Origin: Anastatus disparis
Lineage: Eukaryota > Arthropoda > Insecta > Hymenoptera > Eupelmidae
Direction of reading: 5' to 3'
NCBI GenBank assembly: GCA_017163975.1
Contig: JAFFSR010000301.1
Location: forward strand, 4,376,001 to 4,440,000
Length of the DNA stretch: 64,000 nucleotides
In this document: positions 2,319-60,510 of the stretch, piece by piece
Layout of the letters: each line of letters begins with the position of its first letter
How positions within the stretch are numbered: the stretch's first letter is position 1
The notes under the pieces: generated by a model
The model's input: only the letters and a program-made list of their open reading frames with translations
What the model was told of the DNA's origin: nothing
Databases searched by the model: none
Made by a program: the position numbers and the translations under genes

Positions 2319-2698
2319 GCAGGCCGGAGTAGAACCTGATACCGACCGAGTAACAATTGAGTTGTTTGTTATTTACTCAAGTATTAATCGGTGTATCTTC
2401 AAACTAAAGGTTGAGTGCAATAGATATTATTATTATGGACATCTACGCACAAGAAAAAAAAATCTACCGCTTTGTTTTTGAGAAAAGTAAGTAACGCCAA
2501 AGTAAAATTTTATGTTTATAATATTTTCGCGTTACTTACTTTTCTCAAAAGCAAAGCCATAGATTTTTTTCTTCTTGTGCATAAATATTTGTAATAATAA
2601 TATCTATTGCGCTTAACCTTCAATTTGCAGATACACCGATTAATACTTGAGTAAATAACAAAAATTTCAATTAGACAAGGACAGCGAATCCGGCCTGC
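2319..2698. mobile_element. palindromic MITE (GCAGGCCGGA ends), copy 1
   Basis: The ends are inverted: GCAGGCCGGA at 2319 and TCCGGCCTGC at 2698. Almost the whole element folds on itself, with its centre near 2510 around a repeated TAAGTAACGC block. It has no ORF. A second, truncated copy in the opposite orientation lies at 58660-58920, which confirms a repeat family. No clear target-site duplication is visible. This is a non-autonomous DNA element; the superfamily is not determined. Confidence 0.75.
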
Positions 2699-6934: not shown

Positions 6935-8047
6935 TTATTCAAGGTCAAGCAGGTACCCCCTCACTGCTGTCTTAAACCTGCTGATAGATGGAAGATACTC
7001 AATTTCAGCAGGTAGGGAATTCCAAAAATGCACACCTTGAACTTGGAAGGAATTCCTTCCAGTCTCAGTTCGCATAAAGGGCACCGCAAGATCCTTAGTC
7101 TCTCCCCTAGTAGCCGCCCTAGGTACACATCTAGTGAAGATACTCACTAGATGCTCCGGAGTATTCATGCGCACGATTTTGTACATGAGCACAGCCAAAA
7201 AATACTGTCTCCTCGAATCAGTACGCAGCCAACCCAACGCGGTTCTATAAGGAGAGACATGATCACCCATTCTCAAACCCATTACATATCTCACACAGGA
7301 ATTTAGTAATCTCTGTATTCGTCTTCTCAATTCCTGAAAAGCATCGAACAGAACTACTGAACAATAGTCAAGATGTGGAAACAGCAGGGCAGTTGCGAGC
7401 TGTTTACGCAGAGTCTCCGTAGTGTACCGACGGAAAAACCGCAGGGCATACAAAACTCTATTAAACTTTTTTGTAATCATATCAACGTGCGGTACCCATG
7501 AAAGTTTAGGGTCAAGCACAACACCAAGACTCGTCACGGAGTCAGGGAAAGGTATACTAATGCCTCCCTCAAGATCAATCGTACGTGACCTATCAGCATA
7601 AAAAGAATTTACAAAACGACTATTGCCAAAGACGATTGCCTTGGTTTTATTAGAATTTAAAGTGAGAGAGACACCAGCAGCCCACTCCGACACCGCTTTG
7701 GCCGTCCTCTGTAGAGTGAGAATACCCTCTTCCACATTCTCGTGAAGCACCTGCGTGTAAATTTGCAGGTCGTCTGCATAGAGTAGGTGCTCGACGCAAT
7801 CAGAGTCAAGAGCGCCATGTACGTCATTAATGTAAAGACAAAACAACAGAGGCCCCAGTACCGAACCCTGTGGAACTCCATGGTTGGTTGTTAGCTAAAT
7901 CGATTCCTCGTTTAAATGCGTGGCAACTATTTGTTTCCTTCCTGATATATAGGAGTTAATCCACAAGAGAGCAGCCCTGGAAAGACCCATCGATCTAAGC
8001 CTAGTAAGTAACTTGAAGGGAGAGATCGTGTCGAATGCCTTACTGAA
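6935..8047 (-). pseudogene. LINE reverse transcriptase, C-terminal part
   Basis: This encodes the palm/thumb and C-terminal part of a LINE reverse transcriptase, used in target-primed reverse transcription. Motifs in order on the minus strand: AFDTISPFKL (motif A region), then GVPQGSVLGPLLF (motif B), YADDLQIY (catalytic motif C), and the C-terminal FWNSLP block before the stop at 6935. The longest intact stretch is 303 codons (6935-7846). Upstream the frame continues but is broken by a TAG near 7893, and by a frameshift near 8035 in the segment before motif A. The family resembles Jockey/CR1-group LINEs; I cannot place the clade more exactly. No endonuclease or ORF1 is present because of the 5' truncation. 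Confidence 0.88.
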
Positions 8048-16836: not shown

Positions 16837-17792
16837 TGGCTCTGGGTCGCGGTGCTGTATGTCTGGGGGAACAGATCTTGATTCTGCTCCCCCGCTTGTT
16901 TGATTGACAAACTTGCTCTTAGCTGTGCACAGTTGTTACAGTTTTTGAATACTATACCTTGTTGTCCACACACCTGACAACTTATTTCGGTCATTTTATT
17001 TGGACACTCGTTTGCGCTATGACCTCTGACACCACACGAGTAGCATGTTCGTTGTGGACACTCTGACGCTCTATGTCCCATTCTTTGGCATGTGTAACAT
17101 GGTCCATAGAATGGTGAACCACTTGCTGATAGTACGCGTCTTTCCCCTTGTGGGCTTCTCGCTGATCTATTATTGCCCTATGGTCGCGGCGAATAGTTCC
17201 TATTTGCTGCATTATTATCCCACCTTCTTTGGATTGGAGGTGTATTTGGTCGATACTGTCTTTGATTCGACCAAGCTTGTGATGTCTGAGCCATTGGATA
17301 ATAATTTTGCCTATAAGCATTCTCCATTGCGTTCGGCGCTACATTATTTGCTGTTACTGTTGCAAAGGTCGTTTGAGGTCCTATAAATTGCTGGTCTGCT
17401 CTTGGTTGAATTGATTGTTCAGTGGGATTGCTCGCGTTAATCTCTGTTGCTTGTACTGCTGCTATAGATTCCTCCTTTACGCTTGTTTTCTTTGTTTTGT
17501 TTCTCGCTTTCTTTTGCTTGCCACCTTTCTTTACACTCTTATTTTCGATTTCTTCTTCGCTTTCACTCTCTTGTTTAACAGCAGCTATTTTATTCTGTCT
17601 TATTGAGCCTTTGTAAGCAGCACCAGGTATTTTTGAAGACTCTTTTGATGGTGGTGGTGTGTAGCGCTTATCCAAGTCCTTCTGTCGCTTAAATCGGTGT
17701 CCGTATTTCTTGATTGCGCCAAAGGAATCTAGTGTTTTATCTGCCATATGTTTTCTATATTCTGGCAGCAAATTACAATACACTACATCCAA
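16833..17792 (-). pseudogene. retrotransposon Gag: capsid end and CCHC zinc knuckles
   Basis: This is the nucleic-acid-binding half of a retrotransposon Gag. From 17792 it begins with a capsid-like segment (VVYCNLLPEYRKHM) and then a Lys/Glu-rich linker, followed by a Gln/Asn/Pro-rich stretch. A TAG at 17178 interrupts it. The same frame goes on to two CCHC knuckles: CYTCQRMGHRASEC, then CYSCGVRGHSANEC (C-x2-C-x4-H-x4-C). A third cysteine cluster (CQVCGQQGIVFKNCNNC) follows and lacks the histidine. It ends with TGA at 16833. The upstream frame at 17814-18506 joins it by a frameshift at about 17815. Zinc knuckles are diagnostic of Gag. Confidence 0.85.
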
Positions 17793-17813
17793 TTGACTTC
17801 TGAGCGACGGTGG

Positions 17814-18506
17814 TCACTTAAAGTGGCAAATTATTATTTTTACGCAATCGAGGCTGTTTAATCTATTTCTCTGCATCATCCTTAGTAAGTGCTCGTATGT
17901 TTCTTTCATCCCATTATCGGAGTGCAGTGATTCTTGTTGAGGTCGCTGTGGAGGTTGCTGATGTCCACTAGAGTGCGCTGTCTGCCTCGGTGGTGTTGTT
18001 TCTCTATTATGATGCTGTGTACCTTGGTTCTCGTTACGCACCTCTACCGCCTCTATTTGTTCATTATCCCTCGATGTTCCATCTTGACCTTCTACTCTTG
18101 GGTTACTAGAATCCGGCGATATCATACTGCTTTGTGGAGTGGTTGTGTATTGTGACGTCATTGCCACTTCAAAGTCTGCTCTCCTCAGAAATTTTTGTAA
18201 CCAAGGTATCATAGCCAACTTAGCCAGAGATGTTTTGAGGGTAACCGTTGCTCGTCCCAAGTTCGCTAAAGGTGTCACGTTCATTGGCAGAGATATTATT
18301 TGTCCTGCTGCGTTGGTGCTTGGGCTATAAATATCAGTAACTCCTTTCTCCGAAACATCAAGCTCACTTTGTGAACTGGTTTCCCACGCCTCCGATTCTG
18401 TAACCTTTTCTTTTGATGTTTTCTTAGGTGGTCGGCCTCTCATTTTCCTAACGTCCATTTCCGAAACTTCTTCCATTATATTCGGCGCTGCAGTGGTCGC
18501 TGGCAT
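17814..18506 (-). pseudogene. retrotransposon Gag, N-terminal part
   Basis: This 230-codon frame begins MPATTAAPNIMEEVSEMDVR and includes an AT-hook-like GRPPKK. A long low-complexity Gln/Pro/Ser/His region follows, then a helical end (HLLRMMQRN). It stops at 17814, and the capsid-like segment continues in another frame from about 17820, indicating a frameshift. The fold is not recognisable by eye; identification as Gag rests on its position between the primer-binding site and the zinc knuckles. Confidence 0.6.
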
Positions 18507-21500
18507 CTCTAATCCCCTTTCATCTATGAATGGATTCTATCCAACATCAATTTCTGGTTGACACTAGCTAATGTTGTACCTTATCAGTCTTTCTTTCAAC
18601 ATATCTATGTCTCCATGAGTACTAAGGTCCCTTTGGTCCAGCTGTTCTATTAACTCCTTTGGTTGCAGTGCTCTCATACACCTGGCTAATTTTCTCAGAT
18701 CCCTATTCTCTTTGAGGAGACCGTTCCAACCTTGATTCTTTTTGCTCGTGGTCGCGTCGATAGCAGCGCAACGTTTTATTTTGTTTTTAATTATTTTACA
18801 TTAATATAAGAACGAGAAAGAAAAAAAAACGGGTCGCTAACGAGCTATTTCGTGTCTCTAGATACTTCAAATAGAGACGAAAACGACACGAGCAAAGATG
18901 CACAACGATTTTAATTTTGGTGGCTTTAAGGGTCTGAATAGGGGTAACCGTGCTACCAATGATAAAAAAATAATTTGTATATGTGGGTAATTCTATTCGA
19001 ACGGGTCAAATTCAAATTTTGAAATAATAGAAAATAAAGGTGTTCATTTTAAAAATTTTACTCAGGTATTTTTATGGTTATATCTAATAGAACAATATCC
19101 CAAAGTAGCCAAGCTGTCCATAGGTTATTCCCAGAAAAACTGATAGATAATATACTGATATACTGATACAGAGAAATTACTTTTATTCCAGGGGAATTAC
19201 TTTTTTCATTACCATCACTTGATATATTATTTTCTAATAATATTTATGTCGAACAAAGATTCTAAACTATCTGGAATACTTTAGAATTAGCTATTACCAT
19301 ATATGGATGAATTTTTTAAAATAAAAAACGACGAGTTACAGCAAAAATATGTATTTTTAAACACTATTAAAAGAAAGTTAAAGAACAAATATATCCATAA
19401 TTGAGAAAGTTTGCTTTTTCAAAATATATAATAACATTATTTTTGTGTTTGGGAGTTGAGTTAAGTGTACTTGATGACAAAGGATTAGTAGGAAGTTCGC
19501 CACGTCCACGTGTAGAAACCATTTTATTACCAATACAATCTAAAATAATATATTATTAATTTATAGATTTTACAATGCAGATTTTTAAAAGACTTTCATT
19601 TCAATTCAAATAATTATATATTTACTTTGATATTAACGACAAACTCTTCATCAAGGCTAATGACAAACTGATATTTTTATTTTCTGAATACTACGATGTA
19701 ACCTTTGATTTCGCTTTATTTATTTGTAGTATATACGTAGTATGTAGTGTAGTATGTGAATATGACTACAGTGATTGTTTACAAAAAGATTTGAGAATGT
19801 GCTTACTTGGAAATTCTCCACAAATATATATATATTCAATTTTAAATATATAAAAATTATAAGCAGTATAATATGTATTAAATTTCAAGTGTACAAATAA
19901 TTTAACACTTCATGGTATGAAATTCATGAATAAAATTGTTGACTTTATTATTTAATTAGAATTTTGTGAGAGCATCTCAAAAAAGGCAGGGGAATTATAT
20001 GCCAGGGGAGATTATCTGATAATTTGAATGAAATTTTTACCGAGTAAACGTTCACCGACATTCACTGCTATACAAACTTTTTTAGTTGTACATTACTACT
20101 TTCTTAAATGTCTATTACGTATTTGAATATGCGCTTATATCATCTGTGACAGTTGAATGTTTAGAGCCAGGGGAATTATCGTAGAAAAGGTAACTTAGCT
20201 TTCATAAGTGAAATGATGTTTACACGTAAACAAAAATGTATTCTATGATCAACAAAGCAATTTTTTAGCGAAATAAACATATAATAACAATATTTCCATG
20301 TGATACGAATAGCTTATATTTTCATAAGATTCAAATATAACATTTTTTATTATTATTGCTTTTTATCTATGAAAAAATATACATCTTTTTTTATAATAAC
20401 AGAGGGTCAAAGAAAATATTTTTTTTTTTCAACCATTCTGCTGAAATGTATGTACGGATGGAAAAAAATATTTTTTGATCTTTCAGAAGTATTAATTCAT
20501 CTATCTTGTATCTCCACAACGTTTAAAAAAAATTTTATATATGATTACAGACAGGGGAGATTACTTTTTATACTTTCTAAGGGTCCCTACAAAAGCTACA
20601 TTGAAATTAGCGATTAAAAAGTCAACAGATCATAAAGTTACAAGCTGAAAGTATATAAAAAATTTGTGGTTAATAATATTTGAACCTTGTATTGATAGTT
20701 TATTAAACGATGACATGTGATTACCCGTTAGAATAGAATCACCCATATAGAAAAATATGATATAATAAATAAAACAATCGTAGGTAGGAATTTCGGAATA
20801 AGGTTTTAAATATAAAATTTTTTTCTTATTCTTATATTACAATACTTTGAATATCTCTTGACTCTTAAGTTATAATACTGTCTTGAACTATCTTTCTGAA
20901 AGAAATAACGCAGAGGAAATTCGAATTTCCAGCAAAATTATATATAGTAGCGCTGGTAGCAACGATTAAATGTAACTAAGGGTAACACCAGGACACCTCT
21001 TTTAAATTTTCAAGGAAAAAAACTATCACTTATGCAAATTACAGGATTTTTACAATAATTATATCTAGTAGAAATTAATATATTTTACTGATTATCTTGT
21101 AATTTGCTCACTTTGGGGACAAAATGGGTGCTCACACTTGTGATTTATAATCTTGCAAATTGCACATATATCTAATATCTCTTAACAATCTGAGTCTTTA
21201 GATATATGAGCAGAAGAGAGATAAATACTATTTATTTGATCTTTATATATGTTAAAATATTCAATAAATATGTTTGCGATTATCAATAACGCACACGCTA
21301 ACACCTTTTCTCAATACGCAATTTCTCTCACCGCTTTAAATGATTGCACTCCTTTTTTTTTAACTTTAATTCTATTTTTCTCTATAAATTTACACAGCAA
21401 TTTTAAATATTAATTTATACACAAACTAACTATTTATCAAACACTAAGCACAGGTCGTTCTGTTGGTTTTCTTTACGCAAAATCACAAAAATTGAAAATT

Positions 21501-30867: not shown

Positions 30868-31592
30868 TTGACTGCGTACTGATTCGAGGAGACAGTATTT
30901 TTTGGCCGTACTTATGTACAAAATCGTACGCATGAATATTCCGGAGCATCTAGTGGGTCTCTTCACCAGATGTGCACCTAGGGAGAAATTAAGAAGCTAG
31001 CGGTGCCCTTTATGCGCACTGAAACTGGCAGGAATTCCTTCAGAGTTCAAAGTGTGCATTTTTGGAACTCCCTGCCTGCTGAGATGAAACATCTTCCATC
31101 TCTCAGCAGGTTTAAGTCAGCAGTGAGGGGGTACTTGCTCGACCTTGATTGAATTTAATATTTTTAATTCATATGTTAATTTATTTTTGTAATGTCCCAT
31201 TGTTATGTCCCTATTGTGTGACTGACAGCTGAATGATTTTATTTTATTGTATTGACTGCGTCGTATGCTTTTGCATACGCTTTTTATTGTTTTATTTTAT
31301 TTAAATATTGTTATATACTTTTAAACTTAAATTTTAACATTTTGACTGATAAATAAGGAATGACTGTTTTTAATTTATTGTATTATTGCGTGTATTTTTA
31401 TTATTTTAATCTTTGTTTTTATTATTCTGTGATATCGCTTTTTATAGTGACTTACTTTTTGAGTATCATTAGGATTAGCTATTTGACTGTGATATATGTA
31501 TTTAAGTGCAATATTTATAATTACGCATTGTGTTACACGCTTTTTTGTATATTTATACGAATAAATGCTTATCTATCTATCTATCTATCGAT
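30868..31592 (+). mobile_element. 5'-truncated LINE copy of the same family
   Basis: Plus-strand sequence matches the last ~100 codons and 3' end of the LINE at 6451-12905: LRTDSRRQYFLAVLMYKIVR-like, then PEHLV, FTRC, and a C-terminal GTP/FWNS block ending near 31150 at LLDLD. The frame is broken by a stop and a frameshift near 30995. The untranslated tail ends in the same TATC repeat (31573-31590). It is a typical 5' truncation. Confidence 0.85.
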
Positions 31593-35209: not shown

Positions 35210-37531
35210 AACAGTCAATAATTTTTATACATGCATTTAATGGTCACCTTTATTATTGTATCGATAAAAAAGAGGCCAATTCATTAAACAAAGTCATGGG
35301 AATTTGTTAAGTGAGATATCTTTAATTAGATGGGATTTTCCGCTCTTTAGGTTAGTTTCCGTAATCTCTATTAACATGATAATTTTGTCATACATGCACT
35401 TTAGTGTCACCTATGTTATTGCATCGATAACAAATGGCTAATTCATCTAACAAAGTTATGGGAATTTTTAAAAGTAAGATATCTTTTATTAGATGGCATT
35501 TTTCGCCAGTTAGATTAGGTGCCGTAGTCTCTATTAACATGATGATTTCTTTAAACGCGCATTTTAGTGTTGCTCCCCCATAGATTTGATAAAAAGAGGC
35601 TAATCTATCCAACAAAGTCATGGGAATTTTCGAAAGTAAGATATCTTTTATTAGATGGTATTTTTTTACCGGTTACATTAGGGTTCATAGTCTCCATTCA
35701 CATGATGAATTTTTTATACATGCATTTTAGTGTCGACTTTATTGTTACATGCGATAAAAATAGGCTAATCCATCAAATAAAGACATGGGAGTTTCTTGAA
35801 GTAAGATATCTTTAATTAGATTGCATTTTTCACTGGATAGGTTAGGTTTTCTCGTCTCTATTGACATGATGATTTCCTTTAACGCTCATTTTAGTGTTGC
35901 TTTCCTCATCGATTCAATAAAAAAGGCTAATCTATCTAACAAAGTCACGAGAATTTTTCAAAGTAAGATATCTTTAATAAGATGGGATTTTTCGCCGGTT
36001 AAATTAGGTTCCGTAGTCTCTATTCACTTGATGATTTTTATATTCATGCATTTTTGCGTGGCCTTTCTTGCCGTCTTAGATAAAAAGGCAAATCCATCAA
36101 GCAAAGTTATGGAAGTTTTGTAAAGTATGATATATTTTATTATATAGCATACTTCGCTGGTTAGGTTTAGTTACCTAGGCCCCATTGACATAATGATTTT
36201 TTTATATATGCGTTTTAGTGCCACATTTGTTATTGTATCGATAAAAAAGAGGCTAATTCATCGAACAAAGTCATAGGAATTTTTTAAAGTAACATATCTT
36301 TAATTAGATGGATGTTATTTCTAGTTAGGTTAAGCTCCGTAGTCTTGATAGACATAATGATTTTCTTACACATGTATTTTAGCGTTGCCTTTGTTATTGT
36401 ATCAACATAAAACAAGCTAATCCATTAAACAAAGGCAGGAGAAGCAGATAATATAAGATATTTTTAATTGGATGGGTTATTTACCATTTTGGTTAGATTC
36501 TCTAGTCTTGATTAACATGATAATTTTTTAATACATGCATTTTACTCCCGCCTTTCTTATCGCATTAGAAAAAGAAGGCGAATTCATTAAACAAAGTCAT
36601 GGGAATTTTTTAAAGTAAGATATATTTTATTAGATAGCATTGTTCGCCGGTCAGGTTACGTTCCGTAATCTCTATTCATATAATGATTCTTTAATACATG
36701 CATTTGAGTGTTGTCTTTGTTATTGCACCAATAAAAAAAGGCTACTCCAGTTAACAAAAACCTGGGGAAATTTCGTAGTAAGATATCATTAATTAGATTG
36801 CGTTTTTCGCCGGATTGGTTAGGTTCGCTAGACTAGATTGACATGATGATTTTTTCATACATGCATTTCAGTGTTGCCTTTGTTATTGGATCCATACAAA
36901 AAAGCTAATCCATCAAACAAAGGCATGGGAATCAGTTAAAATAAGATATCTTTAATTAGATTGCATTTTTCACCGGATAGGTTAGGTTTCCTCGTCTCTA
37001 TTAAGATGATGATTTCCTTAAACGCTCATTTTAGTGTTGCTTTCCTCATCAATTCAATAAAAAAAGGCTAATCTATCTAATAATCATGAGAATTTTTCAA
37101 AGTAAGATATCTTTTATTAGATGATATTTATCGCCGGTTAGGTTAGGTTCCGTCGTCTCTATTGATATAATAATTTTCTTACGCACGCACTTAAGCGTCG
37201 CCTTCCTTATCGCATCAAGAATGAAAAGCTAATACATCAAACAAAGTCATGGGAATTTTTTAAAGAAAGATATTAGATGGCATTTATAGCTGGTTAGGTT
37301 AGGGTCCGTAGACTCGATTTATATAATGATTTGTTTATACATGCATTTCAGTGTCGCTTTCGATATTGCATCTATAAAAAAGGCTTCAAGTGTTGCCTTT
37401 GTTATTGGATCGATAAAATATAATAAAATGGATGGCCCATCCATCAAACAAATTATGGGAATTTGTTAAAGTAAAATATCTTTAATTAGATTCCATTTTT
37501 CGCCGGATCGATTAGGTTCCCTAGTTTCTAT
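35210..37531. repeat. satellite-like array, ~163-bp unit, about 14 copies
   Basis: Landmarks recur every 160-165 bp: a CATGGGAATTTTTAAAGTAAG block (for example near 35297, 35457, 35620, 36600, 37246), then ATATCTTTAATTAGATGG, TTTTTCGCCGGTTAGGTTAGG, the CTCTATT-ACATGATGATTTTT block, and ACATGCATTTTAGTGTTGCC. Copies are moderately diverged (perhaps 75-90% alike by eye) and all in one orientation. Open frames across it (for example 35821-36123) are fortuitous. Confidence 0.9.
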
Positions 37532-37548
37532 TGCTGTTGGAATAGCTG

Positions 37549-47397: not shown

Positions 47398-48591
47398 TAA
47401 ACAATAACTATATTGATTGTACGTGTGTAATCGTTTAATTTTCATTGAAATAAGATCGTTTATTTGATTTATTTATTTTTAGTTTCATTCTTCTAAAAAC
47501 GTACTTTGTATGGCCCAAACCATGCTTGATTGGAGTCAAGATGTAAATTAATTTCATATGCGGAAAGAGCAACGCTGATAAAAGCTCGAGATATTGCTCT
47601 TGACATTTTTTTCAAGAGCAATGAAAATAGCATTTACTTTTGAAATAAATTTTTTTTTTTAAAGCACATTAATTTGATGTTATGTAATTAAAATTTACAT
47701 GAAAAGTAATATAAATAAAAATGAATAATGATAAACATACATATATAATAATAAAAATATAGATATAGTAAAAGATTATATATTATTTAAATAGTGCACT
47801 ACACAAAATCATATATTATTTAAATAGTACATTAATGCGCGTCGATAGGGAGGGAACACCGATTTTCGTTGTGCGTATGTAAGAAGGGAGGTCGAATTTT
47901 CGAACAGGACATGAAGAAAAATAGATTGAGTAGTGGGGCAAGAAGGGGAAGCATTTTGCTCACGTTAGCGAGACAAAAATGCTCGCTATAGTGAAACTCA
48001 TTATAGCGAGATTTGAGTGTACTAAATATGTTGGTGATTATCTGGTAATATGTCATGAACATAATATGCGAGACATAAACTCAAAATCAAAAGAAGAGCA
48101 CATGTTAAACGACGTGGCAAAGAGCATAATCACTCATATTAACCTTAATAAATTAGAGGAAATTAAGGAAGATTTATTGCAAGAAATTCAGAACAAAACT
48201 GTAGAAAAACATAACTCTACAATCACAGATGAAAATAGTAATATAGACACAATAATAGCAGGAAATATATTACTGAAACGGTTAGTAACAGAATTACAGT
48301 ATAAAATACAGTATAAATGCGGGCAAACTGCTACATATGCATTTTGATAAAAAGAACAACACTACACGTCTATTACGCTGGCACAGCAACATTAAAACGC
48401 AACGATCAAATCTATATAATTAAGATATTTCAACGATTCGAACGGGATATTTTGTTGCTAATTTGTTACTGAAAGATGGCATATCGCTGGATTTCGAAAT
48501 ATTAATATTTGACTGAATAACAAACACCATACCTTAAAAAAATTTGATAACTGACTAAATTCAAGGGTGGAATAAAAATTAATAAAGGATA
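47398..48591 (+). other. intergenic stretch with a short coiled-coil ORF
   Basis: A plus-strand frame at 47979-48347 (122 codons) has a Lys/Glu-rich, helical middle (NLNKLEEIKEDLLQEIQNKT). Its upstream part is probably not coding. Beyond the stop, other frames have similar character up to about 48530. It may be a Gag or ORF1 remnant, but no diagnostic motif is visible. The element with LTRs begins at 48592. Confidence 0.3.
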
Positions 48592-48890
48592 TGTAGATTA
48601 AATATATTAAGGGGCTTTGTAAGCCAAGATAGTCGTTATAGTTAATCCTGGACTACAAACCAGGAACGTATTCAAGAAGAAATGGTGAAATATCTGCAGC
48701 AAAATATACGATTGAATTGAATTTATTATATGTTAACGGCCTCTACTACGGCATACAGGTAGACCCTATCACAGTGAGGTCTGAAGCTCGACTGGCTTGC
48801 TCGAGAGCTCGCAACGTTCTCTCTACTTACGAACCACTGAAGCGATGCCTATACAAAGTTAGCGCCTGCGTGGTACTGTACGTAGCCACA
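48592..48890 (-). repeat. 3' LTR of the 11.3-kb Gypsy element
   Basis: A direct repeat of 59631-59924 with small substitutions and indels. Its outer neighbour is GATA (48588-48591). A 97-codon open frame here lies in the LTR and is not a gene. Confidence 0.9.
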
Positions 48891-48901
48891 TACTCCCCCC
48901 T
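48891..48901 (-). promoter_or_regulatory. polypurine tract of the Gypsy element
   Basis: The minus strand reads AGGGGGGAGTA directly before the 3' LTR start TGTGGC. This is the plus-strand primer site for reverse transcription and proves that the DNA at its 5' side, including the kinase/LRR gene, is internal to the element. Confidence 0.85.
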
Positions 48902-49421
48902 AAATGTTAGTGCGGCATACAAAAACGACAATGCATTTAAGCTATTGTATTACAAGCTAGTGAATTATGGCAGTAATTATTATTTTTTTTTATTAATTGC
49001 AGGTAGATAATTTACCCTCCGAAAACAAAAGTTTTTTACTATTCAACGTGCTTCATGCACCCACTCATACCTGCAAACTTTACAAAAAGAACGTGCGTAA
49101 CACTCATTCCGCCACATCTATGCATGTATTCCTTAAATACATCAGCCTTGTTGCGTAAAATATGAGCACTTAGTGCTTTACAACCAATATTTGATATATG
49201 CGAGCTTAGAAATCTTTGTAACTCATTATGACACTCACTGATTGAACAACAATATAGATTCTATATAAAAAATACAGTCGTTAAAAAAAAAAAATTTTTT
49301 TTACATGAAAATACGCTTATAAAAAATATATCGCTTTTACAAACATATGTCGCCCTTACGCAAAAGTACAAATCCAATTATAATTAATCTTTCTACTACG
49401 CACAATGCGCGACCGGCCCGA
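48902..49421 (-). other. untranslated end of the cargo region
   Basis: About 500 bp between the last LRR frame and the polypurine tract. No gene recognised. Confidence 0.5.
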
Positions 49422-51174
49422 TTACGCCCTTTTCATGATAGTAAGTATTTCTCCTACTAGACTACCACAAATTTTATATCCACGTAAACGCGCCAAAATC
49501 TCTCTTACGCTATTAGTTTTGCATTTGATAAGTATCACAGTAAGATTGTCTGTGATGCTATATAACGCTGCGAGAAAATCCAATTTTAGGAATTTAGTTT
49601 TCTTTTTTCTTAGGATGTTTACTATTTTGACATACTTCATCTTCAAACCCATGATAGACAATAAAGTACCATTTAAGTTTGGACTATGGTCGATACTTAG
49701 CTTTTTAAAATTTACTAATTTTAAAAAATAGAGAGTATAATTAATTTTCAATCCGTTGATAATCAACTCCTCTAAACAAGGGATCACGCTTATAATATTG
49801 GCGACTCGCCCTATTAGATCGCAGTTATTGACTACGTTAATACTTTTGAGGGTTGATGACAATATTAAATTGGGATTATGAATCCATTCGATCAGCGGAT
49901 ATCTCTCGTTGATAAAACTAAGTTTCCACTTCTCTAATAAATTCTGTCCATTAAAGATGTGTTCAAGTAGCATGAAGTCATACACCTCCTTATCACAATT
50001 AAGCGCATCATGCAGCGATAACACTTTTAATGACGAATTGACCCTGATAAACTCTACAATCTGATGAATTTGTATTCTTTTACAGTTGGTTATAACTAAC
50101 ACTTTTAAATTGTCTAAAAGCGATCAATTTAAAAATTTTAAATTTACTTTATCGTTATTACTAATGTGCAATTCTTCTATATTATATAACTGGACCTGTC
50201 AGCCTATAGCAGATCTTGTCTTTCCTAAAATCAATTTTTAATACTGGGCCAGTTATCGAGGGTTTACAGGATCTTGTCTGTGACGTCAACGCTAGACACG
50301 TCAACTATCTCTAAGTGTCGTAATTTGCCCCGCTGGACATTGAGAATTTTACTTAACAAACTACTATTTACATTAGTTGTACTCGGACCAACCAGGATGT
50401 TCTTAAATCTAAAATTTGCTGCATCGTAGAGCATCAGTCAAAGCGGGTTATGGTGTTGATATCTCCTCATTAATGGAGAAAAATCGACTCTGAGGTCTAT
50501 GAAAAGTTCGGAGAAATGACAGGCCTTAAAGAAAGTGAAGAACTCATCAGTGCTAAGATACGCAACAATCATGTCCAGCAGGGCTTTATCACTCAATAAT
50601 ATGAGCATTTCTCTACTAAACAGCCAGCTATCAGTAATAGGCCACCTCACGGGGACACCCTGTGCACTTGAGTGCTCCTCGTGCGGCCTTATCCTTATCT
50701 TATATGACCTGCCGCTGTCGTACCTCCAACATAGATAACCCATGCCAGCCATGCATTGTATTTTTGCTGAAACTGCGATGTTGTTCCACAGTATGGTGGC
50801 TGAAGTTTTGCCTGCATGATGAGCTACATTCACAATCTCGTAACCATTGCAATCCGCCTCTCTTAATATTCCGTCTATATCTTCTCTAGATATAGTAACA
50901 AAGATGTTAAACATGAACAGCTTGGTTACCAACTGTCCATTAACTAAAAGGACTGGGTGCAAGGTCGTATGCTCTATGTATTCTTGAGCCACGTTCGAGC
51001 CAATATGGCGAGTGTTACGCCTCCTCCTCTGATCATCCTTAATCCTAAAATATCCTTTGTACTCTTCCATATGTAGGAGAGCCAAAAAGCAGTCTACCTT
51101 GATGGTATGACATTGCTGACTATCCTTGAACCGCTCGAATTCTACAATGGTTCGCTGGAGCACCTCCATGCTAT
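49422..51174 (-). pseudogene. cargo gene exon 2: F-box-like and leucine-rich repeats
   Basis: This is the second exon of the gene inside the Gypsy element. An acceptor (TTATTCTGCAG) precedes 51174, and splicing from 51305 keeps the frame. The first 243 codons contain an unrecognised domain, then a stretch resembling an F-box (KALLDMIVAYLSTDEFFTFF). A TGA at 50438 interrupts, but the same frame goes on with LRR-like units (LRHLEIVDVSSVDV). A TAA near 50271 and a frameshift follow, and then 226 codons (49422-50102) with repeats such as LKVLVITNCKRIQIHQIVEF and CLEELIINGLKI. F-box/LRR proteins usually select substrates for ubiquitin ligases; here the F-box call is weak and the LRR call moderate. 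The exon is dead as it stands. Confidence 0.6.
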
Positions 51175-51304
51175 CTGCAGAATAACATGGGATTAGGTAT
51201 TTGTTAATCTTATTAATAGCCTATATTACTATGCGTATTTCTATTTGCAGATGTTATAATACTAGCTAGATATACTATCACGATTTAAAATCTATTTTAT
51301 ATAC

Positions 51305-52112
51305 CATTCGAGTCATATCCTAAGCCAATATTTGGTAGATGGTTGCACTCCAACATGCCGTCGAAAAGTATGCTACCAACCTTGTCATAATCTACTGGCT
51401 TATTATGTCCGACATATGCTAAATCAGTCATATACTTGTTAAATGTTTTAGGAACGTGAGTTCCGTCAAAACAGGTCCGCAAAAATGCTGGAATGTCGTA
51501 AAATGCATAATTTTTGCGCGCTCGCAACAGTTGAACATTATTAAATAGCTTTGCCCATGGCAAAGAACCTGTTGCCCAAAACATCATATTAAATAAAAGT
51601 GACTCTAGGTCACCGCGTTGGGTACATAAACTATTGTGAGCGTCTCTGCTCCTAAAGAGTCCATCACCCCTTTGTGCACCGAGTGTAACGGGTCCATCGG
51701 ATCCAGTGTATATTGGTGCAACTTGGTGAAAACCTGACAGATAAACCTGTTCTGGATTATTCCTGTCAAGGAAAATACTTTTGAGTTTGATGTTGTTACA
51801 TGATTGACCTGTGCTATGCCCAAACTCTAGTACAAGGACCAACTGCCAAGCCACCGAGTAAACCTGTTCCAAAGGCAATATGCCATTATTGTCAGCCAAT
51901 ATATTACCCAGGTTTTTTTCGTATCGTTCGGTAGTCGAAAATCTATAATGATTCGAACCCACCATGAACTTGCCGTGTGCGAAAAATCTAGCAATGGATG
52001 ATGAGGGTAATTGTCGCTCCTCTATCCACTTGTTCAACTTTTCAAGGCTAGCTTTTCGTGGTGGCAAGTTAACCACTAATTTGCCACAAACTTCTACAAC
52101 AAACGTGCAACC
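51305..52112 (-). pseudogene. cargo gene exon 1: VRK-like pseudokinase
   Basis: This frame of about 269 codons resembles vaccinia-related kinases. Matching landmarks: KLNKWIEERQLPSSSIARFF (VRK N lobe), YRFSTTERYEKNLGNIL (hinge region), then NNIKLKSIFLDRNNPEQVYL where VRKs have the HGDIKxxN catalytic loop and YLVDYG. RDAHNSLCTQRGDLESLLFN corresponds to the VRK SxDAHNG...RRGDLEILGY block, followed by LPW. The catalytic aspartate is replaced by Asn, and the metal-binding DYG/DFG is replaced by SGF, so a kinase reaction is unlikely. The N-terminal ATP-binding loop is absent. A donor (AATG|GTATAT) ends it at 51305. The frame continues directly from Pol through one TAG at 52113. Confidence 0.72.
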
Positions 52113-53522
52113 CTAAGAGTCTTCGTATAGCATCTCTTCCAGTGACCATCTCTGGCCAGTAGTGTCAGAGATAATAGTTTCTCCAGGAATTATCTGACTG
52201 ACTTCTTGGTTAATGTGCTCACCAATGGCCGATGTATTTTGATCGATGTTGTGATCATCAATACTGTTATTAGCTTCTAAATCTGCATTATCCTCCTCAG
52301 AGTTTACACTTGCAGGATTCAGCTCAACATTTAATTCAGACTTAGCAATAAGATCACTGGGTGTATCTCTTGCCTTTTCTGCGTCAAAAGTATCCGTCAG
52401 CGTTTCGTTCGGCTCTATGTGTACCTGCACTCTAACTACAGTTTTACTGTTGCTTTTTTTTTGTGTTTTTGCAACTTCTTGTTGGTCTTCCTCTGGCTCA
52501 TTATTCATACCATGGGCTGGCTTAAGTAATTCAGCTGCAACGATTTTATTCCTTCCTTTAACCTCAATTACGAAGTTCTTACCATTATCTGAGCGGGAAA
52601 TCACTTTAAATGGACCAGCATAAGGTCTATCCAGGGTAGGTTTAATTGCCTTTACTCTCATAAATACATGTGAGAATTTATCTAGGTCTTTAAAAACGAA
52701 TATTTTGATGGAATTATTATGATTGGTTAGAACGGGTTTCAACTCTCTCATGTATGTTCTAAATTCGTCTAAAAATGTGGACTTACAAGGTTCTCGGTTT
52801 GATAAAGCGAAGAATTTTCCTGGAACTCGCAGACCGGTACCGTATACGAAATGAGCTGGGCAGGCGTGGGTATCTCTATGCACACACGTCCTGAGGCCCA
52901 AGAGAACTGTTAAGAGTGGGTTGACCTAATTTCCTTTTTCAGCATGGCATCTGAGAGCTGCTTTTAAGGCTTTATGCCATCTTTCCACCAGACCGTTAGC
53001 TTGCGGATGGTAAGTGGTTGTTCTTATTCTCATACAACCCAGAAACTGAATCAAGCATTTAAATAGCTCAGATTCAAACTGTGCTCCTTGGTCTGTGGTA
53101 ATAACCTCTGGTGCTCCAAATCTGGACAACCAGTTATTTATAAACGCTCTAGCTACTGTTGAAGCAGTGATGTCTTTAACTGGTATAGCCTCCGGCTATC
53201 TTGTATACCTGTCCACCATAGTGAGCAGATACTTCTATCCATCACAACTTGGTAATGGTCCAACAAGATATATGTGTATGTGAGAAAATTTCTCATTAAG
53301 TACCGTAAAATGTTCAGGCCAGAACTTATTATGGCGGGATACTTCACATTGCTGGCATTTTAAACATTCTTTTTATCATTTTGTAATATCACGGTGCATG
53401 TTTGGCCAGACAAATTTCTGCCTAATTAACCTATCAGTTATTCTCGCACCAGGATGCGAAATCTGATGGAACAGCGTAAAGGTTTCCTTTCTTGACGCCT
53501 GTGGCAGATATGGTCTACTAGT
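52113..53522 (-). pseudogene. Gypsy integrase with GPF-type C-terminal domain
   Basis: Integrase inserts the cDNA into the host genome. From the N terminus: an HHCC-like zinc domain (LFHQISHPGARITDRLIRQK, then CLKCQQC); a catalytic core in which the first aspartate position reads Tyr (HIHIYLVGPLP), the second is present in TTDQGAQFESELF, and the glutamate is present in HPQANGLVERWHK; then YGTGLRVPGKFF; and a GPF-type module (YAGPFKVISRSDNGKNFVIE) before an acidic 130-residue tail ending at the TAG at 52113. Stops occur near 53523 and 53378, with further breaks near 53203 and 52926. Not functional in this copy. Confidence 0.85.
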
Positions 53523-54774
53523 TTAACCAAAAACGTCACAATAAATAGGTATATCATTTACTCCCAGCGTGAGCTTTTCTAACTCAAGAGGGCGTTTCTT
53601 CTTCTTGAGAACACTGAGCAACCATTCGTCTTCAGATTGCTTTTTACTCAGCAGTGCTAACTCGAAAAGAGTGGGCATTTGAAAAGCTTCAACCCTAGCG
53701 CAGAACTCATTTGCTATAAGGCTGTCTGATTTTGCAAGCTCTTCTTTTTTACATAGTAACCACCTCAAAAATAGCCATGAGTTCGCGGTCACCTGTTGTA
53801 TGATTCAATTGTGCTGACGAGAACTTACGTGAGAAAAACGCAAGTGGCTTCCACGTGCCATCAATGAGCTGCTCTAACGCAGCACCCATTGCATAATTAG
53901 ATGCATCGGCAACGATTCTAGTATCAGCATCGTCACAAGGGTAAGCTAAATGGGTTACACTAGCCAAATCCCTCTTGCTTTGCTCAAATGCTTCCTCACT
54001 TTCAGCACCCCAGATAACAGGACGTTTATCCTTCTTATTAAAATTTATAAGGTGTTGATTTAACAATCTTTGGGTTTTAGCAACGTTAGGAATACAAAGT
54101 CTATAGAAGTTAATCATTCTAATATATCTGCGGAGTTGATCAATGTTCTGTGGCTTTGGGAAATCCACAATGACTTGGACTTTGCTCTGGGAAGGCTTAA
54201 AACCATCCTTACTTATATGATGTCCCAGAAACTTTAATTCATTAACCCCAAAGACACATTTTTCAAGATTTAGTAGTAAGTGCGATTCTTCTAATCGTTT
54301 CAGGATGATATTAAAATGCATTTCATACTCTTCTTGGTTAGATGAGGCGGTAAGTATGTCATCAATATAAACAAAAACACAGTCCAGGTCTCCTAAAACT
54401 CTGTTAACGTAGCACTGAAAGGTCTGCGCGTTATTACGCAGGCCGAATGTCATGACCTTGTACTCAAATAAACCGAAAGGAGTGATAACGGCTGTTTTAG
54501 GCCTATCACACTCTGCGACTGGTATTTGATAATACGCTGTCTGGAGGTCTAAAGAGGAAAAAATAGTCTTCCTACTTAGAAATGTTGGAAAATCGTGAAG
54601 GTGGTGCACTGGGTACCTGTCTGGTACTGAAACCTGGTTGAGTGCCCTATAATCTCCACAAATCCTCCAGGAACCGTGCTTTTTGGGCACCATATGAATA
54701 GGACTTGCCCACAGGCTGCTAGAAGGTTGACACTCGCCCGTTTCGCACAATGATTTAAACTCAGCTTTCGCCAC
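53523..54774 (-). pseudogene. Gypsy reverse transcriptase and partial RNase H
   Basis: Reverse transcriptase core: [44 protein letters not shown] (motif A aspartate), [17 protein letters not shown], catalytic [10 protein letters not shown], and [10 protein letters not shown]. The RNase H start is present ([12 protein letters not shown], then [12 protein letters not shown]). The frame breaks at 53749. The next frame (53523-53792) begins with the linker typical of the region after RNase H (ARVEAFQMPTLFELALLSKK), so the second half of RNase H, including the usual TDHKPL segment, is missing. I infer an internal deletion of some 70-80 codons. Confidence 0.9.
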
Positions 54775-54780
54775 TTGAAG

Positions 54781-55323
54781 TTAAACAGGACCGAATAGTC
54801 TTGCTCTTTGCGCGTTAGGAAGGCCTGTAGTCTTAATATAGTGTTCTACACCACGACCTTGTAGTGGTGCAGTTTGTTCCACTCCAAGTACCTTAGGGTA
54901 TTTATTGAGCAAATGAGAGTAATTAATATTTGGTTCAATAACCGACACTTTAAAATAACTTATTTCCTTCTCTATAGCATTAACTGATCTAAATGTCGTA
55001 CCGTCTATAAGCTTCCTTTGATTGAAGTCAGGCAAAAGATGGTAGAGTTTCAGTACATTACCTCCAATAATAGGATACGGCACATCAGCCACAATAAAAT
55101 TCCAGTTTATAGTTCTGGAGATGCTAAGATCAAGTTTGAGAAGTTCAGTGCCGTAAGTTTGTATTACGGTGTTATTTGCAGCATATAACTTAATATTAGG
55201 AGTTTTATCTAGTCTACGAGATCCTCTGGGGACTAAAGAGACCTCGGCGCTGGTATCTATTAAGAAAAGTTCACTACTATTTAAATCTCTCATATGGAGG
55301 CGAACCAATGTAGAGTTTTCCAC
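54781..55323 (-). pseudogene. Gypsy aspartic protease and RT leader
   Basis: Retropepsin-like domain that would process Gag-Pol: FLIDTSAEVSLVP occupies the active-site position (usual DTGA/DSGA, with Ser in place of Gly here), and IIGGNVL matches the second conserved IIG block. The remainder leads into the reverse transcriptase (HYIKTTGLPNAQRARLF). A TAA at 54781 separates it from the RT frame in this copy; in intact relatives the two are continuous. Confidence 0.82.
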
Positions 55324-55346
55324 TGATACCTCCTTTGCAGCGGAGT

Positions 55347-56687
55347 CTATTTGTTTCCCTGTGCTTTATTTTTGCTAGGGTTGCTGGATTCAAAACTGCT
55401 ATAATGCTTGCAGAATTCAAAGCATTTCATGGCTTTTTTTCGGTAATAAAAATAATACCAGCAAATTTCTTCTTTATTGCTCAATTCAATTGCCTTATTC
55501 CTCTGGTTTTTCTCGTGAACTTTATTTTTGCTACTTTTATTTTTCATATTTATTTTATTTTTGAAACTACCGCGCATTTGAGTTCTTTTTTCTAGTGCTT
55601 CAACTCTTGCTTCTATATCTGAAGCTGTGTCTGAACTGGTGGATGCTTGCTCAGCAACTGCGTTTACCGTATCCTTTTTATTCAACATGGTTTCCCATGT
55701 TTTATTAGCTGTTTCTATTTGAACGCTTTCAGACCAGGTATGTGAGTTCGGACCCATATGTAATAATAATTTGTTTGGGAGTTTTTCTCTCCGAACTTTT
55801 AATATCATTGACCTGGGAATACTATCCCCTGCCAGACATAATAATTTATGAAAGAAAAATGATGGGCATTTTTTACACATTCGTTGGATCGTAAATAGCT
55901 GTTCTAACTTTTTCCCAGGAGATTGAGAATACTTTTTCAGGATCGCTTCTTTTAACGCATGTTTAACTTTCTGCTCTGCGGTTTTAATGACGAGTGTCAG
56001 TCGTTGCACATCGTCTTTACCCAAGTTCTGCATGAGGTTTCAAAATTCATCCTTGTCTGATATTATGCTTTTTTTAGACATTTGGTTTTCAAACAAGGAA
56101 AACCATATTTCCACCTCTACTTTCCATAGAGTCTGGAATTTTATTTCAAACGCAGAGCCTAAGTTCGAATCTTCTTCAATAATGATGGTAGGTCTGTTCT
56201 GCAATGAAGCGGAAGCGACAACCGAAGACGCAGGGTTATTATTAAATATTACAGGTGGTTAATGTATTTGCGCATCCACCGTTATAGTATTATTACTATT
56301 AGACATACTCTAAGAAGCATTACTAGTAGACGTTGCTGCATCTATCGTTTGATCGTTATTACTCTCAGTTCTAGGAGTGTTAATGTCTCCCTTACTCTGT
56401 GTAAGTAATTTGAGTATCTCAGAAATGCTAGCTAGAGTTTCCTTGACCATCGTTAAACGACCATCCAAGATCGGTTTCTTATTTTTATCTTTGAGCGGTT
56501 TGGTTTTGGCGTTTGCGTTTACGTCGCTTGTTGCTAGACCCTGCAAACCTAAGTTACTTTCTACCTCATGTACCTCGACTGAATCATAGAAATTATCAGC
56601 ATCGTTCGGAGGAGCCATATTGTACACTGTCTTATTTCTAGTCATAGACTGAGTATTTGCAAGGGACGAATGTTCTACTCTCCGCAT
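55347..56687 (-). pseudogene. Gypsy Gag with CsRn1-type cysteine motif
   Basis: The N-terminal piece (56310-56687) is Asp/Asn/Thr-rich, with a likely initiator at MAPPNDADNFYDSVEV. Two stops (56310 and near 56264) separate it from a capsid-like segment (WFSLFENQMSKKSIISDKDE), then 228 codons (55347-56033) with capsid helices and LCLAGDSIP. The end carries CWYYFYYRKKAMKCFEFC, a decayed form of the CHCC motif (CWYH...C...C) that CsRn1-clade Gags have instead of the common CCHC knuckle; the His is Tyr here. The order and spacing fit a single ancestral gag. Confidence 0.78.
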
Positions 56688-59615
56688 ACATTAGCAACGC
56701 AACGCTCAAATTGATATACCTACGTCCAGAACCCACACTAACAAATGGTCTGGCACGCCACGCCACAATTCTCTCCACTCGAACGTGCACTCTCACTCTC
56801 ACACAAAGGGTTGAAACAGAGTCGTGGACTAAAATTAATCAACATAAATACAAATCCGTGCATAAAAGACTAGAAACTCATAAAATTTCTTTGCGAATGA
56901 CTGGTCTCCCAGAGTCATGAGCTGTCAACTCACAGATTCTAACAGGGATAGCACCCAAAATCTCTCCGTGGCCAACTATGGCATACGCCAGCACTCACAA
57001 GCTCTTAAGAAGAACAAATGTCGCACGTTAAAAAAAATGCACTCATACTGCACATTTAAAAACAAAGGTCCAGTTGTCTGCTAGCTCTATTCGAGCGCTT
57101 TATGGACTAAAATAATATGATTACAACTAGCTGACCTATAGACTAAACTAGCTAATGAAAATCGAATCAGGTCGGTCGTGCATATGTGTCACGTGAAAAG
57201 GCTGAAATCTATAGATTTATTTACATATGTTGAGAATTTATATAATGTTCACTATTACGAACTACTCTCAATGATCTCACTCCGTTCACGAGTGTTGTCT
57301 CGTGGTTACGGTTTAAATTTTTCATGCTCCTCATCGGAAAACAAAGAGAGAGCAACTTGACTGTAGCATCTATACGCTATTACTTATTATAATGTAAACC
57401 TTTCAATTTAAATAAAGTCAATTCTCTATGGTTCTTCCGGTGAAAACCCGAAAATGACGAACAAGAGAAAATTGAATTTAATTTTATTATGAATTTGATT
57501 AAAGAAAGAAATGAAAAATTTTAAATGTATATTTTGTTTTCGATTCCTGACTGGAAAGCGAGAGAAGAGTAACAGAGGATTTATACATGCTACTAAAGTA
57601 ACACTGAAATTAATTACAATGTAACGGTTAACCCCTTATTGCTAACTTAAATTAAGTGACGGGTGCAATAGGGGGGTCTGAACCTCCTTTGCCGGACGCT
57701 TCAGCGAATCCAGGGTCAGACTGGAGGAGGTGGAAAGGACGGACGATGGATAAGATAGGAAAGTGACCAGGTGTACACTTTAGTTTTATGCTAGGGAGTA
57801 CCGAAGCTCTATTAATCACAAACTTAAACTATTTACAACGACGAGTAAAAAATGTAATGTAACAAACAATAGAATTTTCGGACTTGAATGAAGTGTGCAA
57901 AGATATTATATTAACTGAGTTCCGCGGTATAATTAGATCTTGGTTTTTTACTAGTTAAACGCGCAGCTGCATCTAACTCGGTGCGGTATTAACAAGAATC
58001 TGAACAGAGGGTGGGCGGCACCCTTAACGCAGTTAATAATAATATGTGGGAGGACATCACCTTTCAGCCTAAGCTAAATGATTTACGGCGGCGGTGGTGA
58101 CAAAGAGGGAGACGGCCCTCTATACGGCGGCCCGTGGAGGAGCGCGGTCCTCTAGGTGGCTCAATTAAGAACCCGACGGCTTAATGACCGGGTAAGATTG
58201 TCATAGTATACAGAGCGCTGCATAATACGACAAAATACAGGTACTAACAGTAGTCTGTACTAACATTGGAGTGCCAATGTTAGTTGACAGCCACTGTAGC
58301 AGCCTCTACAAAAATAGTGGTCGTCGCCGATCCTCTCGGTAGCTGGCATCGAGTCTTATATGTTCTCTAGCTCGCTGTTCTTGTATAAGGAGCGCTTACG
58401 GCGAGGTGTCTCGTAGTGGCCGAGCGCGGTACTTGGTGGTGCTCGAGATTTGAAGTTGTTTTAGCGAGGATATGAATATTTGTCGCAACAAATAAACATC
58501 CTTTATACGCTCTAATTCACTACCATTCTCTCCAGGTATTCCAATCAGCAATCGAACGAAGAAAGATTTATTAAACAAAAATAATATCTAAAAGGTAGAA
58601 AATTTAAAAATTTTAAATATAATAAACTAAATTTCGATATTTGAATAAGCAATTTAAGAGCAGGCCGGATTCGCTGTCCTTGTCTAATTGGCATTTTTGT
58701 TATTTACTCAAGTTTTAATCGGTGCATCTTCAAATTAAAGGTCGAGCGCAATAGATATTATTATTATGAACATCTATGCACAAGAAAAAAAATATCTACC
58801 GGTTTGTTTTTGAGAAAAGTAAGTAACGCCAAAGTAAAAGTTTATGTTTATAATATTTTCGCGTTACTTACTTTTCTCAAAAACAAACCGGTAGATATTT
58901 TTTTTTGTGCATAGATGTACCACGCTTTCCTTTTACGTTTTATCTTTTTTGTTCAATTTTATATTTTATTATTTTTAATTTTTATCTAAATTTCTTCCTT
59001 CGTTGTTCAATTTTTATATTTCATTATTTTTACTTTTTATCTATTTAAATTTTTTTTTAAGAAAATTTCCTCCTTCTGCGTTTTGCAGCCGGCTTACCAA
59101 CTTGATTCTTGTGCCGATTCTTCTTACTTGCTGATTTTCTTGATTTTTTTAGTTTCACTTTTTATTTTTCATTAAACACGCAATTACGCAGAAAAAATGA
59201 TTTTTAGGAGCGAATTTTCCCGCGCGCACTGCACATGCCTCGTAAGAAAAAAAACGTTGAACTTGATGTTCTAGGTGTGCTGGATCGTTGCTGGATCGCT
59301 GCTTTGTCGCTGGCCCGTTGTAGCCGTTGAAAATACGCTAACAAGCGTGCTGCACAGTGGACCAAAAATGTTGCGTCAGCCGATGAGCGAAGTCACGCTA
59401 CGACGCAGATGCTATGTATCCAATATACGACGGAAAAGCCGTCAAACAACGATGCGATGATGTGTAGCGCTTGAAAAAGGCCACCTCCTGGCGGCTAATA
59501 ATCGTTGAAAAGGAACAGCTTGGCGTCGAGCCCTTGAATTGATGTAGAGAAAAACTTTTTGCCGAAACTCTGTAGAGCGTGATTTGATGAAAATCGCGGC
59601 ACTTTCTTCCTTCCT
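56688..59615 (-). other. long 5' leader of the Gypsy element with an inserted MITE
   Basis: Almost 3 kb separates gag from the primer-binding site, much longer than usual. It contains a MITE fragment (58660-58920). It also has a GC-rich 57.64-58.45 kb block that starts with an ATAGGGGGGTC purine/G run, possibly a second element's polypurine tract and LTR, and two tandem AT-rich units near 58950-59040. The part at 59200-59615 (next to the PBS) is GC-richer and probably the true leader. No gene is seen in it. Confidence 0.5.
58660..58920. mobile_element. truncated copy 2 of the GCAGGCCGGA palindromic MITE
   Basis: It begins GCAGGCCGGATTCGCTGTCC, the same as the right end of copy 1 (2319-2698) in reverse orientation. 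The central palindrome around TAAGTAACGC is perfect over about 50 bp per arm. The other outer arm is missing after 58920. Confidence 0.8.
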
Positions 59616-59630
59616 CACAGGAGTCACCAA
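59616..59630 (-). promoter_or_regulatory. primer-binding site of the Gypsy element
   Basis: The minus strand reads TTGGTGACTCCTGTG immediately after the LTR end CTACA. TGGTGAC-CC resembles the complement of the tRNA-Trp 3' end used by CsRn1-type elements, with substitutions. Confidence 0.75.
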
Positions 59631-59924
59631 TGTAGATTAAATATATTAAGGGGCTTGGTTAAGCCAAGATAGTCGTTATAGTTAATCCTGGATTACAAAC
59701 CAAGAACGTATTCAAGAAGGAAATGTGAAATAACTGCAACAAACGATACGGTTGAGTTAAATTTATATATAAATGGCCGCTACGGCGTACTGGTAGACCC
59801 TATCACCGTGAGGTCTGAAGCTCGACTTGCTTGCTCGAGAGCTCGCAATGTTCTCTCTACTTACGAACGGCTGAAGCGACGCCTATACTAAGTTAACGCC
59901 TGCGTGATACTGAACGTACCCACA
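59631..59924 (-). repeat. 5' LTR of the 11.3-kb Gypsy element (294 bp)
   Basis: A direct repeat of 48592-48890, TGTGGGTACG...AATCTACA on the minus strand. It is followed outside by GATA (59925-59928), the target-site duplication. Confidence 0.9.
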
Positions 59925-60510
59925 GATATTTTGTTGCTAATTTGTTGCTGACATTTCCGTTCGGAAACGATTTTGTTAATCTAGCCGTTTTCGAGAAATC
60001 ATGGCTGTGCTAGCATAAGTCGTACGCTAACACGACCACTGGAGTAACTTTTTTTCTAATGATTGAAGTTTTGATAATAGCGAATAAAAATTCAAAAATT
60101 ATATTTTTGTAAAATAAATATCGTAACATTTCATTTGCAATTAAAAAAAATTAATTCTTTAAAAATTCTAGATTTAAAATTATTTTGAAAATACAAAAAA
60201 TAGGGATAAAGATTGAATAAACTTTTCTGCCCTCTAGCCGGAAAACGACAACTTTTTGGTCGCTACCCAAAACAAAGTTGCCGCTTTCCGATGCCGTCGA
60301 GCAGAAAAATAGTATACAACCCTTGGCCAGTAAATAAGAAAGCCTGAGATCACATGTTAGTAAACCTCGGCTTCGCCTCGGTCAACAATTACATGTTATC
60401 TGAGACCTTTCTTACCTTTTTGGCCATAGGTCGTAATATCCTATTTATGAGTTTTATAATTTTCCTAGACAAGTTTCACATTCGTCAGCCAGTCCCAGAC
60501 TGATGCACCA
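59925..60510. other. flank with a small inverted repeat
   Basis: No gene is seen. At about 60332-60430 a short palindrome pairs GGCCAGTAAATAAGAAAG with CTTTCTTACCTTTTTGGCC around CCTCGGCTTCGCCTCGG, perhaps a small MITE. Confidence 0.5.

Follow-up and report, generated by a model that had tools for sequence, protein, structure and literature searches.

The window analysed here, a 64,000-nucleotide stretch of the Anastatus disparis genome (contig JAFFSR010000301.1, positions 4,376,001 to 4,440,000), contains on its minus strand an 11.3-kb long terminal repeat (LTR) retrotransposon (48592-59924) in which a VRK1-like kinase forms the C-terminal domain of the Pol polyprotein. The element is delimited by a 5′ LTR of 294 nt (59631-59924, TGTG...TACA) and a 3′ LTR of 299 nt (48592-48890), and is flanked by the target-site duplication TATC (GATA on the plus strand) on its 5′ side (59925-59928) and its 3′ side (48588-48591). 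The primer-binding site TGGTGACTCC (59620-59629) lies one base behind the 5′ LTR, and the polypurine tract AGGGGGGAGTA (48891-48901) adjoins the 3′ LTR. A sequence-only reading of this DNA had proposed a Gypsy element and pointed to these features, and the window sequence confirms each of them. The two LTRs, aligned without the terminal four bases that they share, are identical at 262 of 287 positions (25 mismatches, 13 of them transitions; Kimura two-parameter distance 0.093), so this copy is fairly old. It is also decayed: pol has stops and a frameshift, gag and the third open reading frame (ORF3) have stops, and the kinase contains a stop and has lost a short piece of its N-lobe. Two copies of the 22-mer AACAAATTAGCAACAAAATATC are found on the window's minus strand, one immediately ahead of the 5′ LTR (59925-59946) and one about 120 bases beyond the 3′ LTR (48446-48467), and the target site was therefore probably itself a repeat.

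All coding parts of the element lie on the minus strand. The leader includes a hairpin repeat resembling a miniature inverted-repeat transposable element (58658-58918, strand not assigned), copies of which, at 85-91%, are found within window positions 2365-2700. The gag region (55347-56690), named by position, comprises the open reading frames (ORFs) 56690-56310 and 56039-55347; Pfam DUF7041 matches the gag ORFs of the element copies L010, L013 and L017, but not those of the window. Protease, reverse transcriptase (RT) and RNase H follow at 53749-55365, with one stop and one frameshift; the motif LIDTSAE is taken by us to be that of the protease, and RT and RNase H match Pfam profiles at E 1e-27 to 5e-12. 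The integrase core and its C-terminal linker (52176-53195) are interrupted by stops, and the Pfam match of this fragment (E 1.3e-4) lies below Pfam's own cut-off. The kinase domain occupies 51297-52175, with an in-frame TAG at 52113-52115. Behind it, a spacer (51170-51296) ends in the acceptor-like TTATTCTGCAG just 5′ of the ATG of ORF3, which stands in the env position (49422-51169) and is split by stops into 51220-50438 and 50123-49422.

The kinase ORF of the window (51297-52112) matches human VRK1 in the PDB at E 8e-22, VRK2 at 3e-15 and VRK3 at 1e-12, which bears out the VRK-like fold proposed from the sequence; a Pfam scan of the same ORF gave no match, and Pfam Pkinase matches the C-terminal 308-328 amino acids of six element copies (5e-19 to 5e-8). 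By sequence and fold, the element kinase belongs to the VRK family and is nearest to VRK1. The last integrase ORF of the window copy shares its frame with the kinase ORF, the single TAG being all that separates them. Family B and three copies from the window's own LTR family (L002, L003 and L005), used for comparison, place this codon in the glycine loop of the kinase, from whose N-lobe about 21 codons are gone. Since the TAG lies in the glycine loop and the frame is the same on both sides, the point at which pol had been read as ending (52113) is a mark of decay inside the kinase domain.

The same arrangement is found in other copies across the genome (939 Mb, 399 contigs). The genome searches scored the best candidates only (40 of 55 for the LTR, 142 of 233 for the kinase, 75 of 9870 for the integrase and 74 of 795 for ORF3, with 123 of 261 and 84 of 372 in two follow-up searches); match counts are lower bounds, and absences are soft. 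Eight of 20 stretches around selected kinase copies hold one stop-free pol frame of 1438-1499 amino acids in the order protease-RT-RNaseH-integrase-kinase, the rest being broken to varying degrees, and a third ORF of 587-602 amino acids is present in six of the 20. Pol pieces of families B (L010), C (L013, L015) and D (L017) match Pfam RVT_1, RNase H, Integrase_H2C2 and rve; the protease profile RVP is found in L013, L015 and L017 (below the Pfam cut-off in L017), and the protease of L010 is recognized by motif only. The order protease-RT-RNaseH-integrase is that of Ty3/Gypsy elements (Metaviridae), to which Pol order assigns them. Rather than a separate gene behind pol, the kinase is a domain of Pol itself, at its C-terminus and immediately after integrase. 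Of the kinase-LRR (leucine-rich repeat) gene that had been placed in the env position, only the RRM-like/F-box/LRR protein encoded by ORF3 sits there (RRM, RNA recognition motif). A single kinase-LRR gene is ruled out by the separate frames and by the presence of ORF3 in elements without a kinase match, and the intron suggested within it is not supported: its proposed donor, GTATAT at the kinase end, is not conserved in either of the two sister copies compared (L002 and L003).

The kinase moved with the element. The window 3′ LTR has at least 41 genome matches, and 28 of the 41 listed have a kinase match within 11 kb; all ten same-strand LTR pairs 5-14 kb apart among the matches listed, the window's included, enclose a sense-strand kinase match. 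Every row listed by the LTR, kinase and integrase searches entered this comparison. The kinase itself has at least 145 genome matches (136 loci once merged), many at 25-54% identity and with open frames of up to 1499 amino acids. Because the LTR pairs enclose the kinase without exception and diverged kinase matches lie in long frames, the kinase is cargo of the element, and in more than one family; the sequence-only reading was right to place the gene inside the unit that moved. Ten further elements, assembled from LTR to LTR in families B, C and D, have LTR identities of 100% (four elements), 98.3-99.7% (five) and 97.5% (one), and nine of the ten carry a perfect 4-bp target duplication, none being found for L009. 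Kinase-fused copies have transposed recently.

At least four element families carry the kinase, whose identity to that of the window's family A is 46-54% in B1/B2, 32-34% in C1/C2 and about 26-28% in D1/D2. All catalytic motifs (IGIGGFG, VIKVE, HNDIK, DFG) are present in the four family C copies tabulated, so that, judged by sequence, this family has the glycine loop, VAIK lysine, HxD and DFG of an active VRK kinase. The motifs are degenerate in B1 (HTD, and GFG for DFG), B2 (HAN and GFN), D (HTD and GLG) and A (L001, YNN and GFN), and at least one is missing in 11 of the 15 tabulated copies (families A, B and D). The window copy has an interrupted glycine loop, CNNIK for HxDxK and SGF for DFG. 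The designation as a pseudokinase thus suits the window's family, but not family C. In the kinase domain, the ratio of nonsynonymous to synonymous substitution rates (dN/dS) is 0.092 for the C1-C2 comparison and 0.113 for D1-D2; the same two comparisons give 0.057 and 0.041 in protease-RT and 0.193 and 0.142 in gag. The kinase domain is under purifying selection in families C and D, and the value of 0.113 means that even the degenerate domain of family D is constrained.

Some related elements show no kinase match. A family C integrase query gave at least 76 genome matches, with a kinase match downstream in 44 and none in 32 (40 and 36 by the first kinase search alone); this split used selected rows from the two follow-up searches (of 125 and 88), and the omitted rows, compared by eye, included none near the kinase-less loci. 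In their match to the family C integrase, the kinase-less sisters are about level with family D. Their four longest stop-free frames measure 1162, 1162, 1163 and 1188 amino acids, about 300 fewer than the eight longest frames with a kinase (1438-1499; the next 1199-1367). Some of the 32 are fragments, and ORF3 lies downstream in 11 of them. In ten of these 11, integrase and ORF3 are 384-388 or 757-781 bases apart, depending on the end point of the integrase match; in the 11 elements with a kinase the distance is 1004-1157, 1453-1455 or 1584 bases. At C135:28702988, kinase-less by search, this distance is 1329, nearer to the 1381 expected with a kinase than to the 658 expected without, and a kinase may have been missed there. 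Since elements with no kinase match keep integrase and ORF3 with a shorter Pol, ORF3 is independent of the kinase, which looks like an optional module of Pol.

The F-box-like and LRR parts of the window gave no Pfam or PDB sequence match, but structure prediction for a homologous stop-free ORF3 of another copy yields an N-terminal coiled coil, an RRM-like fold, an F-box and LRRs, in line with the F-box-like and LRR regions first read from the window. Pfam scans of three ORF3s found neither an env family, such as marks Errantiviruses and env-bearing Gypsy elements, nor an F-box match, and the fold predicted for one of them is F-box/LRR. A Foldseek comparison of the model with 1ft8, one of the NXF1/TAP-type RRM-LRR export factors, gave E 6e-4 at a low TM score, and no ORF3 relatives were found in the protein database at E <= 0.01 among 7998 candidates scored. 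An acceptor-like TTATTCTG(C/T)AG just 5′ of the ORF3 start is common to the five copies compared. In three of the ten LTR-to-LTR elements (L015, L016 and L018, in families C and D separately), all with near-identical LTRs, the 3′ LTR follows 0.8-1.0 kb after Pol, which leaves no room for ORF3. ORF3 is a separate protein which, on the predicted RRM, F-box and LRR model, would bind RNA and recruit an SCF ubiquitin ligase. One ORF3 match lies in an open frame of 1477 amino acids at C44:255688-257355, possibly fused to another frame.

A related host gene, as anticipated, exists elsewhere: one of the follow-up searches (84 of 372 candidates) found host VRK1 in exon-like pieces, which indicate that this gene has introns. 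In the tree, the family C kinase groups with Hymenoptera (support 99/96), and an origin from chalcids within Hymenoptera is neither favoured nor rejected by the approximately unbiased test (p-AU 0.35). The element kinase thus appears to descend from hymenopteran VRK1, and because the element kinases are uninterrupted, we infer capture at the RNA level; the kinase was likely captured once, long ago, from host VRK1 messenger RNA.

These elements may be described as a Ty3/Gypsy-type group with a Pol-fused VRK1-type kinase, captured once from hymenopteran VRK1 messenger RNA and acting on BAF at the element DNA, a reading to which we give an even chance. The Pol fusion would carry the kinase with integrase in the particle to the element DNA; at the cDNA, the kinase would most likely phosphorylate BAF, a DNA-bridging protein of the host, or some other host protein bound to DNA, while families with a dead active site, the window's included, would bind BAF rather than catalyse. 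BAF-like sequence is present in the genome, with six matches at three places, of which two are adjacent (C227:2260168-2260520 and C224:2805651-2810496). VRK1 is reported to phosphorylate BAF and to weaken its hold on DNA in this way; BAF itself is reported to trap foreign DNA and, in retroviruses, to prevent autointegration (PMC7378220). Linking VRK1 to a DNA carrier is reported to give fewer BAF clusters (PMC12718190).

Several observations weigh against this reading. The single-origin branch of the element kinases has support of 84/90, with long branches flagged. No Pol-kinase fusions in other species were found among the best 120 of 243 protein-database matches (listed at 472-710 amino acids, search range about 472-1503); an earlier protein search with the window's own kinase gave two matches, neither a Pol fusion, and no relatives were confirmed among viral contigs and genome contigs, so independent confirmation from the species searched is wanting. 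The close-pair kinase dN/dS values (0.849, 0.222 and 0.270, on 4, 11 and 4 changes) are noisy and say little; the comparison between copies suggested in the sequence-only reading documents constraint for C1-C2 and D1-D2. Catalysis cannot be the shared function, because 11 of 15 copies lack one or more motifs and family D is nevertheless constrained, and the kinase looks dispensable, given that 32 of 76 integrase matches stand for elements that persist beside these with no kinase match. BAF is also reported to help retroviral preintegration complexes (PMC7378220), so removing it need not help the element. In the carrier work, VRK1 fused directly, in an earlier design, is reported to have left BAF clustering no lower, and reporter expression fell with the linked version (PMC12718190). 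The action of the element proteins on BAF is itself a prediction.

A narrower form, in which a working captured VRK1 rides on the cDNA and strips off BAF as a barrier, the sister families being pseudokinase-bearing or kinase-less, we hold only tentatively; it would amount to a natural integrase armed with a kinase, comparable to the poxvirus B1/B12 pair and to engineered VRK1-DNA carriers. Alternatively, the kinase domain could take the position of a chromodomain and steer integrase to nucleosomes, either by binding or by histone phosphorylation as in VRK1/NHK-1, which we consider unlikely. Its place directly behind integrase and linker fits such a role, a purely binding function would explain domains that are degenerate yet constrained, and VRK1 is reported to bind nucleosomes and to phosphorylate H2A and H3, its basic, Arg-rich tail contacting the nucleosome acidic patch (PMC11734890). 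That tail is absent here, which speaks against VRK1's own nucleosome contact: the last 25 Pol residues contain 0-3 Arg or Lys in all eight copies examined, unlike the tail of nucleosome-bound VRK1/NHK-1, and Pol of L013 ends about 25 residues behind the VRK1 match. Rather improbable, in our estimate, is a self-regulatory role, in which phosphorylation of Gag, integrase or ORF3 by the kinase of the same element would time particle disassembly or nuclear entry, dead versions being structural or regulatory. The Pol fusion would place the kinase in the particle at a fixed ratio to integrase, and it is kept in at least four families; the substrates are purely conjectural, however, and kinase-less elements show integrase and ORF3 in the same order. 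Carriage of the captured sequence without function would account for catalytic decay in three of the four families and for elements without a kinase match, but the stop-free fused frames of recently moved copies and a dN/dS of about 0.1 over the long separations within families C and D make it very improbable. Insertion of a host gene into one element after landing, which the broken state and age of the window copy (LTR distance 0.093) might suggest, is refuted by the ten kinase-bearing LTR pairs of the window's family (nine besides the window's), beside ten LTR-to-LTR elements of other families with the kinase behind integrase, and deserves practically no weight.

To our knowledge, a protein kinase within Pol has not been described for any LTR element, and no such case was found in the open-access literature searched by title and start of abstract, a scope outside which most subscription papers fall. 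Poxvirus B1 and B12 are VRK relatives, a kinase and a pseudokinase, so that virus-like agents carry both versions there as here; the present case differs in being a retroelement with the kinase as part of Pol and in an effect on BAF that is only predicted. Vaccinia B12 is reported to change VRK1 and BAF regulation (PMC9175622). Chromoviruses of the Ty3/Gypsy group, described as LTR elements with a chromodomain at the integrase C-terminus (PMC3605345), likewise have an extra host-type, chromatin-related domain fused behind integrase, but here this domain is a VRK kinase, and no chromodomain (Pfam Chromo, E <= 0.01) was found in the integrase and linker pieces of L010, L013, L015 and L017. With cellular VRK1/NHK-1 (ballchen), the element kinase shares sequence, fold and, in family C, all catalytic motifs, whereas it is uninterrupted, lacks the long basic C-terminal tail and is fused to Pol. 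Like Errantiviruses and other Gypsy elements with a third ORF, these elements have an ORF downstream of pol, ahead of the 3′ LTR, whose ATG is preceded by an acceptor-like site; unlike them, they have an ORF3 predicted as RRM-F-box-LRR, and three of the ten LTR-to-LTR elements have no room for it. ORF3 also differs from FBXL F-box/LRR proteins in its extra N-terminal coiled coil and RRM-like fold and in giving no Pfam F-box match, its SKP1 binding being putative. Host sequence inside an LTR element is likewise known from plant and other LTR elements with additional ORFs or transduced genes (e.g. Bs1), but here the kinase forms part of Pol and has been retained across at least four families. 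Additional ORFs explained by transduction are reported to exist as one or a few copies (PMC7264820). If the kinase does act on BAF, a BAF barrier to incoming retroelement DNA in insects would be testable with natural active, degenerate and kinase-less elements in one genome, and a chromatin kinase would have been captured by a retroelement in parallel with poxviruses.

Other repeats are present in the window. An ORF at 6935-7894 carries NHGVPQGSVLGPLLF...YADDLQ, presumably the C-terminal part of a non-LTR-type RT, and a diverged copy of it lies at 30868-31517 (73%). At 17178-18536, two ORFs (211 and 240 amino acids) resemble gag pieces of another element, the one scanned having no Pfam match, and self-comparison places a 2.3-kb direct-repeat array, with repeats about 66-82% alike, at 35217-37533.

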